Below, in pieces: positions 13,996 to 16,187 of a stretch of DNA of 64,000 nt. The DNA comes from a virus, in IMG/VR virus record IMGVR_UViG_3300032093_000074, positions 1-64,000 of that record; one strand, 5' to 3'. Under the pieces are notes generated by a model. The model was not told where the DNA came from. It was given only the letters and a program-made list of their open reading frames with translations, and searched no databases. The position numbers and the translations under genes are program-made. The stretch's first letter is position 1, and each line of letters begins with the position of its first letter.

Positions 13996-14280
13996 ATGAC
14001 CGTTTTGAAGGGGGCCGAAATCCTGGGTGAAGCACACCAGCTCATCACCGGTCCAAGACAACAACAATACGCACACCCGTACGAGGACTACAGCAAAGTT
14101 GTGGACATCTTCTACGGGCTAACCGGCGTCCGTCTCACCGTCCATGAAGCACTCTGTTTCATGGTGTCAGTCAAAATGGCACGGCTACGCACAGCCGTGG
14201 AACGTGGAGGCTGGCACCATGATTCGCTGGTGGACGCCATCGGATATTTGGGGTGCATCAACATGGTGGAGAAACGATGA
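13996..14280 (+). CDS. DUF6378-like phage protein
   Basis: A 94-residue helical protein: EILGEAHQLITGPRQQQY, then HPYEDYSKVVDIF, CFMVSVKMARL and DSLVDAIGYLGC. This order matches the DUF6378-type family common in phages, whose all-alpha shape resembles MazG-like nucleotide enzymes. Activity is not established. Its stop overlaps the methyltransferase start (ATGA). Confidence 0.65.
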   Translation: MTVLKGAEILGEAHQLITGPRQQQYAHPYEDYSKVVDIFYGLTGVRLTVHEALCFMVSVKMARLRTAVERGGWHHDSLVDAIGYLGCINMVEKR

Positions 14281-15553
14281 GATTCGGAAGTTTGTTCGCA
14301 GGAGTAGGCGGATTCGATATCGGGTTGGAAGCAGCCGGATGGGAATGCGCATGGCAAGTCGAATGGGACAAACATTGCCAACAAACACTTCAACACCATT
14401 GGCCGGACGTACCGAAATGGTGGGATGTGTCCGACGTAAACGGTGCAGAACTACCACCGGTAGACGTCATCACGTTCGGTTCACCATGCCAAGACCTGTC
14501 TGTCGCAGGCAAAAGGGCAGGTCTAGACGGCGGACGTTCCAACCTATTTTTTGAAGCAACAAGAATCATCAAGGAGATGCGAGATGCAACAAACGGAACC
14601 TATCCAAGATGGGCTATTTGGGAGAACGTACCAGGAGCCTTATCCAGCAACAACGGTGCAGACTTTGAGAGGGTCCTCGAAGAAATGGTTGACCTCGGGG
14701 GTCATCACATCGAATGGAGCATCCTTGATGCGCAGTTCTTCGGAGTCCCCTAACGGCGTAGACGAGTGTTCGTCCTCGCTTGTTTCGATGCTTCAATCCT
14801 CCAACGAGGTGGCAGACCGGTACTTGCTGTCGGGGAAAGCCGCAGAAGGAATCCTGCGAAGGGCAAACAAGCGGGGCAAAACACTTCCCCCACAACTCCA
14901 GCAGGCTTTGGAGATAGTGGTTTTGCACGGTGGCAGGAACGGGAAGTAACAGTCACACTCGCAGCCCGAGACTACAAATCCCCCAACACGGTTGTTGTTG
15001 AAGAACAATGGCCAGCTGGGACAACAGAAGACGACGTTCTCGCCACCTCTATATGCAGCAAATGGGCTAAAGGCACAGGCGGACCGTCAGGGAGCGAATA
15101 TTACAACCTGGTGGTGGACAGCCATGTGGTTCACGAAAAGTAGGCGTGCCCAAAATGTTGACGATTACGAAACATGGAATATGGGGGGGGGTGTCACCGA
15201 CATTGAACGCTTTTGACAACACCGGGGATAGCCGTGCAACCGTCCTCATCATTGATGGGACCCGTGTCAACGATGTCCGAATCTACGACGACGAAATCAC
15301 CCCATGCTTGAAAAACAGGATGGGGACAGGAGGCAACAACGTGCCACTCATACAGGAGCAAGAAATGCAAGTACGCAGACTCACCCCCGTCGAATGTGAA
15401 CGACTCATGGGATGGCCCGACAACCACACACTCCCCCGAGCAGACGGCAAAACAAACAGCGACACCACCCGCTACAAAATGTGCGGCAACGGAGTCGCAT
15501 CACCAGTAGCCCAATGGATAGCAGAACAAATCAACAATGCAGAACATCTGTGA
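14277..15553 (+). pseudogene. C5-cytosine DNA methyltransferase, broken by three lesions
   Basis: The locus encodes a Dcm-type enzyme: motif I FAGVGGFDIG at the start, motif IV FGSPCQDLSVAG near 67 with the catalytic Cys, motif VI WENVPG near 125, motif VIII before QRRRRVFV, and the C-terminal LTPVECERLMGWPD and YKMCGNGV. TAA at 14,751 replaces the Gln codon of motif VIII. The frame then shifts in an A run near 15,136 and again in a nine-G run at 15,184-15,192; removing one base from each run restores a continuous protein (VDDYETWNMGG-VSPTLNAFD). The product from 14,277 would stop at residue 158 and should be inactive. Sequencing error could explain the indels but less easily the substitution. 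Confidence 0.8.
14584..14949 (+). CDS. Intact gene overlapping the methyltransferase in another frame
   Basis: A 121-residue protein read one base out of phase with the methyltransferase. It has its own ribosome site (AAGGAG at 14,571, seven bases before ATG) and a conserved-looking C-terminus: DRYLLSGKAAEGILRRANKR followed by GKTLPPQLQQALE. From memory, phage proteins with the LSxKAxxGILRRAxxRGKxLPxxL signature occur beside phage methyltransferases. The nonsense change that kills the methyltransferase is silent here (Pro CCC to CCT), and both frameshifts lie downstream of this stop. Function unknown. Confidence 0.65.
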   Translation: MQQTEPIQDGLFGRTYQEPYPATTVQTLRGSSKKWLTSGVITSNGASLMRSSSESPNGVDECSSSLVSMLQSSNEVADRYLLSGKAAEGILRRANKRGKTLPPQLQQALEIVVLHGGRNGK

Positions 15554-15686
15554 CCATTGCGGAACCGTCAACCTCGCCCTCACAACCTGGACACGGCAAC
15601 AAATCGAAGGATGCGAATGCGGATGCCACCAAGCACAGGCATACCGGATAGCGAAAAAAACCAAATCAAAGAAATGGAAAAAATGA
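15537..15686 (+). CDS. Zinc-ribbon miniprotein, 49 aa
   Basis: MQNICDHCG opens with a CxxC pair, and CECGC near 34-38 supplies the second metal-binding cluster; the tail is Lys-rich (KKTKSKKWKK). It overlaps the end of the methyltransferase remnant and ends as ATGA over the first WhiB start. It probably binds nucleic acid. Confidence 0.55.
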   Translation: MQNICDHCGTVNLALTTWTRQQIEGCECGCHQAQAYRIAKKTKSKKWKK

Positions 15687-15949
15687 GAAACAAAAACTGG
15701 AGAAACGAAGCAGCATGCCGCGGGGTGGACATCGCCATCTTCTACCAAGGGCGAGGAAGCGGACCCCGCATGTACGACAAAGCCCGAGAATACTGCAACC
15801 AATGCCCAGTCCTAGCTGACTGTTTCGAGTTCATCATGGAAATAGAACTAGACCCACACAACCACCGCTGCGGAATGTTCGCAGGACTCACCCCCAAGCA
15901 ACGTGCCGCATACCAAGCACAAAGAGACACCAATGTTTCTGCCTCTTAA
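15683..15949 (+). CDS. WhiB-family transcription factor 1
   Basis: An 88-residue WhiB-like protein. The four iron-sulphur Cys are ACRG near 11, YCNQCPVLADC near 38-46 (CxxCxxxxxC), and the WhiB turn follows as RCGMFAGLTPKQR. WhiB proteins bind sigma-factor region 4 and occur only in actinobacteria and their phages, so this marks the host group. The ATG chosen overlaps the preceding TGA. Phage WhiB proteins may repress host genes or block superinfection. Confidence 0.88.
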   Translation: MRNKNWRNEAACRGVDIAIFYQGRGSGPRMYDKAREYCNQCPVLADCFEFIMEIELDPHNHRCGMFAGLTPKQRAAYQAQRDTNVSAS

Positions 15950-16187
15950 ATGGATGAGCGAAGCAGCATGTGTCGGTGCCCCAACAGAAATCTTCTTCCC
16001 CGAAATCAACGGTGGCAACACCGAAGAAGGCTGGGTTGAAGCCCGAAAATACTGCGCTGAATGCACCGTCCGAAAAGAATGTTTGGCGCTAGTCCAACAA
16101 TGGGAAAGCCCGGACGTCCGCCGCAACGGAATGTGGGGCGGGATGACACCAACCGAACGTGACAGGCATTTCTCCCGCAAAAGATGA
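15933..16187 (+). CDS. WhiB-family transcription factor 2
   Basis: An 84-residue second WhiB directly behind the first, overlapping it by 17 bases. It has ACVG near 12, YCAECTVRKEC near 38-47 and the GMWGGMTPTERD turn. The clear sequence differences from the first copy argue for an old duplication or separate acquisition rather than a recent tandem repeat. The start at ATG 15,933 gives normal WhiB length. Confidence 0.87.
   Translation: MFLPLKWMSEAACVGAPTEIFFPEINGGNTEEGWVEARKYCAECTVRKECLALVQQWESPDVRRNGMWGGMTPTERDRHFSRKR

Follow-up and report, generated by a model that had tools for sequence, protein, structure and literature searches.

A +1 reading frame under purifying selection inside phage C5-cytosine methyltransferase genes

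Does the gene of a broken phage methyltransferase (MTase) carry a second, intact protein in another reading frame, and if so, is that protein peculiar to the broken copy or a regular companion of the enzyme? The question is raised by a locus in a window of 64,000 nt (the whole stretch of DNA analyzed here), taken from a virus contig of 79,213 bases. A first-pass annotation of this window had described a dying MTase whose lesions all spare an overlapping frame. Its main features, including the predicted domain of the second protein, are as follows.

14277..14753, + strand: N-terminal half (N-half) of a C5 cytosine MTase, motifs I-VIII, frame 0 (PF00145, E=2.6e-44; phrog_116, E=8.6e-58)
14571..14576, + strand: Shine-Dalgarno (SD) sequence AAGGAG, with a 7-nt spacer to the +1 ATG (from the sequence)
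14584..14949, + strand: overlapping +1-frame gene for the "GILRRA" protein, 121 aa (+1-register homologues in >350 loci; purifying selection)
14754..15143, + strand: N-half frame beyond the nonsense codon, up to the native TAG at 15141-15143 (ORF 14766-15143)
14818..14931, + strand: conserved C-terminal domain of the GILRRA protein, residues 79-116, RYLLSGKAAEGILRRANKRGKTLPPQLQQALEIVVLHG, a predicted basic helical hairpin (AlphaFold, column conservation)
15124..15216, + strand: start of a separate MTase C-terminal half (C-half), ATG at 15124, MWFTKSRRAQNVDDYETW... (junction as in locus L025)
15183..15191, + strand: G9 run, lesion of the C-half frame (from the sequence; identical in L010 and L011)
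15192..15553, + strand: remaining MTase C-half, part of the TRD and motifs IX-X (PF00145, E=1.4e-10; phrog_116, E=1.2e-22 on 15146-15550)

A split methyltransferase with two lesions

The N-half frame is cut within motif VIII (FGVP*RRRRVF) by a TAA at 14751-14753, the nonsense codon that had been reported, and the same codon is present in L010 and L011. Farther 3', an A4 run lies at 15136-15139 and a G9 run at 15183-15191, both of which had been read as single-base expansions. The G9 run is real, is common to three assemblies, and puts the C-half start out of frame. The window, L010, and L011 are three IMG/VR records that are identical across about 1.4 kb, every feature included; since L010 and L011 come from other assemblies and share all of the lesions, these are not sequencing errors of one assembly.

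The A run, by contrast with its earlier reading, is no lesion. The MTase is naturally split in the close relatives L017, L022, L025, L208, L030, L033, and L036, where an N-half with motifs I-VIII in frame 0 ends close to the position of the window's junction, and the C-half, which starts at a separate ATG in a different frame, opens with variants of MMWFTKRRRAQ..DYETW...PTLNAFDN and usually overlaps the end of the N-half. The window's junction (N-half stop at 15143, C-half ATG at 15124) follows that of L025 almost letter for letter, with junction details varying among the other split relatives. Because this junction is common to the window and its close relatives, the A run belongs to the native architecture. 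This leaves two genuine lesions in the window, one in each half of the enzyme: the nonsense codon in the N-half and the G9 run in the C-half.

The +1 gene is intact despite this damage; its 121-residue frame with its own AAGGAG is present as had been described, and the A4 and G9 runs both fall 3' of its stop. To that extent the lesions do spare it, but the sparing is uninformative. The silence of the nonsense change in the +1 frame had also been taken as a sign of selection, a point that did not survive counting: 19 of the 40 possible single changes that create an enzyme-frame stop in the overlap (7 of 15 for transitions) are equally silent in +1. With about half of all nonsense routes silent, the window's own nonsense codon proves nothing, and since its lineage represents a single haplotype, it does not inform on +1 retention after enzyme loss. 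Just 3' of the MTase, at window positions 15557-16187, we also observed two WhiB-like regulator genes (PF02467), pointing to an actinobacterial host.

Conservation and selection of the +1 frame

When the 121-aa product was used as a tblastn query, 114 GenBank phage records matched, P1 dmt among them. Homologues in the same +1 register are found in C5-MTase genes of P1 and of Vibrio, Roseobacter, Mycobacterium, Streptococcus, and Ruminococcus phages, as well as of prophages, and further ones in Pectobacterium, Enterobacter, Akkermansia, and Pseudanabaena phages; the hosts span Actinobacteria, Proteobacteria, Firmicutes, cyanobacteria, and Verrucomicrobia. A pattern scan of IMG/VR for the gene gave at least 600 matches. 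The homologue is at +1 relative to QRRRR in the loci read, and the gene typically extends from just 5' of motif VI (ENV) to about 60-75 codons past motif VIII (QRRRR). It is almost never annotated, being missing from the annotation of P1 and of >100 GenBank phage records. In P1 dmt itself (L002:1434-4475), an intein-like insertion sits at the catalytic PC motif (PC^FTAGHMVLCKNG...VVHN^CQ), and this insertion is missing from the related enzyme of Enterobacter phage CobraSix.

We analyzed the openness of the frame in loci selected by the enzyme N-terminus only, upstream of the overlap. The +1 frame was kept in all 75 readable loci of this sample, with a GILRRA-like motif or a close variant; under a looser motif, it was open in 76 of 77, compared with none of 11 generic proteobacterial C5 MTases of equal GC. 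Synonymous shuffling of 20 representatives below 65% identity gave a summed log10 P of -38.8 (median P 0.025 each), a value to be read beside the MTase-selected counts because many of these representatives had been found via the +1 frame.

A comparison of synonymous rates in the two frames, set beforehand as the decisive test, favored constraint in +1. Across 97 disjoint pairs, +1 dSN/dSS in the overlap was 0.29 (0.25-0.36), against 0.76 upstream and 1.19 downstream, the upstream control of 0.76 rather than 1 reflecting a composition bias in the test that is below the effect size. For the same pairs, the overlap-aware +1 dNN/dNS was 0.33, against 0.76 upstream and 0.93 downstream, these rates being raw counts uncorrected for multiple hits. 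Along the enzyme, synonymous change drops about 3- to 5-fold exactly within the limits of the +1 ORF: in a sliding profile of MTase-selected pairs, a level of ~0.4 gives way to 0.08-0.18 over codons -55 to +64 relative to motif VIII, with recovery after +65, and P1-like pairs give the same dip. Constraint on the enzyme frame is almost lost within the GILRRA half (dNN/dSN 0.84).

Could the frame simply be held open by the arginine-rich motif VIII together with constraint on the enzyme, or by an RNA element, with no second protein made? Part of the conservation does have this origin, in that the SExPN of the +1 protein is mostly forced by FGVPQRR and its N-terminal conservation is partly dictated by frame 0. 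However, the frame is open in none of the 11 generic C5 MTases, and in a 31-codon block from 25 divergent loci mean identity is 65% in +1 but 28% in frame 0 and 27% in +2. The effect is also specific to +1, with a dNN/dNS of 1.52 in the +2 frame and stops there in 20 of 25 blocks. An Rfam search returned nothing above threshold, its one snoRNA match lying far below it as a chance hit, and start signals are enriched beyond synonymous expectation (see below). We therefore consider such a by-product very improbable. Together, these comparisons show that the +1 frame is kept open and that purifying selection acts on its amino-acid sequence; within the overlap the +1 protein is better conserved than the enzyme. 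A frame open beyond chance and purifying selection specific to that frame are what is expected of a functional overlapping gene, and the >350 loci and these selection tests lend strong support to the earlier proposal that the locus is dual-coding and widespread and that its GILRRA product is conserved.

The predicted protein and its expression

AlphaFold predicts helices at residues 84-97 and 103-116 of the window protein (pLDDT >90) and the same hairpin in a Firmicutes homologue, the two divergent members modeled, with a disordered N-terminal half in both. Near-invariant positions are L82, S83, A86, G89, I90, L91, R92, R93, A94, G98, L101, P102, L105, A108, and L109. The product would thus begin with a disordered stretch, its sequence dictated in part by frame 0, and end in a basic helical hairpin that is conserved. 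We found no sequence similarity to proteins of known function and no convincing relative in Pfam, NCBIfam, PADLOC, or the PDB. Foldseek matches to sigma-A and EXOG had E values of 1 or worse, leaving no significant structural match. A ribbon-helix-helix fold, suggested by one Pfam match and by eye, was rejected by profile-profile comparison: the RHH_1 profile hit 1 of 145 members (E 6.5e-4), and hhalign gave 8.8% probability, out of register. Nor did the +1 protein match any HNH family in Pfam, and its ORF sits in native MTase sequence. Motif IX (RxLTPxExxRLxG) is missing from GILRRA proteins unless they are fused to the C-half.

The only family matching most members is PHROG_16143 ("DNA methyltransferase"), whose profile matches 106 of the 145 +1-frame proteins. 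Its label is probably wrong, naming the host gene, since the +1 protein has no methyltransferase motif. Because this profile matches +1 proteins, some phage gene calls must already include the +1 ORF.

As to expression, we propose that the protein, 120-160 aa in length, would be made by internal initiation on the methyltransferase mRNA. The best +1 start in 246 loci had an SD-plus-start score of 5.56, compared with 2.27 for synonymous shuffles, and 166 of these loci carried an SD of at least 5 nt; in some, including P1 and L301, the SD is weak, the P1 start being placed about 95 codons ahead of motif VIII. On sequence grounds, the gene usually has its own translation start. Gene architecture also argues for translation. 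In L301, L345, and L380, GILRRA is fused in frame to the MTase C-half and the N-half ends in frame 0, so that an active enzyme would there need translation of +1; L312 is fused likewise, on a contig that ends before motif IX and cuts the C-half. In the mycobacteriophages Thibault and KashFlow, an HNH insertion removes the 5' part of the +1 ORF, and what remains is the hairpin part, preceded by a new ATG that overlaps the HNH stop (annotated in Thibault as gene 104, gp104, 81 aa). Such fusions and such survival favor translation of the +1 frame, which could in principle also be reached by a programmed frameshift out of the enzyme frame. The +1 gene is very probably real and translated.

A possible partner of the enzyme or an unrelated passenger

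What might the protein do? We favor the reading in which the hairpin protein and the methyltransferase act together, the former being an accessory subunit, nucleic-acid-binding partner, or regulator, and put the probability of this reading at roughly 0.4 to 0.45. The protein would act near the junction of motif VIII and the TRD, which is a frequent split point of these enzymes. The argument rests on linkage and fusion. No stand-alone homologue was found in the >350 loci, in 80 bacterial loci, or in 10 prophage-bearing genomes searched whole; nor was one found in 299 genomes of one bacterial phylum, where PF00145 occurs in 165 and a GILRRA match in 7 and where the weakest matches were inspected in part. 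The first-pass annotation had assigned the second product an independent function. The protein search that it proposed did yield many homologues, but none outside MTase DNA, and this absence and the fusions to the C-half suggest a role bound up with the enzyme. The case is weakened in that an overprinted gene is linked to its host gene by origin, and the fusions can arise by frame drift of the C-half.

The main rival is accordingly a real second protein whose function is unrelated to methylation, such as counter-defense or regulation of a neighboring gene, and which is nested in the enzyme through its birth by overprinting. This would fit the window, where the +1 gene is intact and the enzyme is broken in both halves, and the nearly relaxed enzyme frame in the GILRRA half. 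It would also fit L081 and L082, in which three stops interrupt the enzyme frame within the overlap but none the +1 frame; however, both keep a separate ORF for the C-half with motif IX and may thus have a split enzyme instead of a dead one. Against an unrelated function also stand the fusions and the fact that no GILRRA gene turned up away from a C5 MTase in the loci and genomes searched. We regard this rival as somewhat less probable than a partner role, though a serious contender.

Alternatively, the +1 ORF could be part of a split or frameshifted MTase, GILRRA heading a beta subunit (GILRRA, TRD, and motifs IX-X) in the manner of M.AquI and being a relic elsewhere. The fusions in L301, L345, and L380 (and L312), with an N-half ending in frame 0, have this very layout, and split halves occur in many loci. 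Yet 152 distinct loci have a one-piece frame-0 enzyme that extends past motif IX together with a +1 ORF closed by a stop of its own, and selection on +1 is strong, with no sign of decay; we thus find this reading unlikely. In this phage group, C5 methyltransferases seem to be split often: motif IX lies in a separate ORF in about 56 of 209 classifiable distinct loci, some of which may reflect sequencing frameshifts.

We then set the partner reading beside known systems. The beta polypeptide of M.EcoHK31I is encoded within alpha, in a different frame. In this alpha/beta C5 methyltransferase, the second, smaller polypeptide takes part in methylation (PMC3404938). The loci studied here likewise code for a second, smaller polypeptide, the part in methylation being that of M.EcoHK31I; but its beta carries motif IX, which the GILRRA protein lacks, and GILRRA is spread over phages whose hosts belong to many phyla, where it mostly accompanies an enzyme that is complete and in one piece. 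M.AquI is split in the variable region past motif VIII into N-half and C-half polypeptides (PMC3404938), much as the window lineage has separate ORFs for the N-half (I-VIII) and C-half (IX-X). The same two-ORF layout is met in L017, L022, L025, L208, and L033, while both halves carry lesions in the window. Unlike in these phages, no GILRRA gene is described for M.AquI (PMC3404938).

Hidden frames of other kinds are also known. The ShiLan domain is an HNH endonuclease encoded out of frame within the gene of a phage methylase (PMC11855218). It resembles GILRRA as a hidden other-frame ORF inside a phage DNA methylase, but it is a mobile insertion of patchy occurrence, whereas GILRRA lies in native core sequence and is near-universal in its MTase group. 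Thibault and KashFlow (L450:1375-1992 and L451) have both together: their out-of-frame HNH insertion, similar in kind to the ShiLan element, sits directly past motif VIII and leaves the methylase frame open. Overprinted viral genes offer a wider comparison, in that GILRRA, too, is encoded in a second frame of a gene older than itself. De novo frames of this kind are described as restricted in distribution (reviewed in PMC8227390), while GILRRA spans phages of many bacterial phyla and is better conserved than its host frame in the overlap. In the full text that we searched, with subscription papers mostly outside the search, no description of the +1 gene was found.

Together, the evidence favors an overlapping gene of ancient origin that occupies the +1 frame in C5-cytosine methyltransferase genes from a large group of phages. 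Overlapping genes are a known kind that tends to be young, local, and difficult to demonstrate; it is the depth and breadth of conservation that are unusual here. Knockout or mutation of these methyltransferases may disturb two proteins together. A stronger form of the partner reading, which we hold only tentatively and as less probable than a partner role in general, is that most C5 MTase genes in this large group of phages, among them that for P1 Dmt, also specify an obligate +1 subunit or regulator needed for correct methylation of the phage DNA. If so, an ancient overprinted protein would hold an undescribed small module, a basic helical hairpin.
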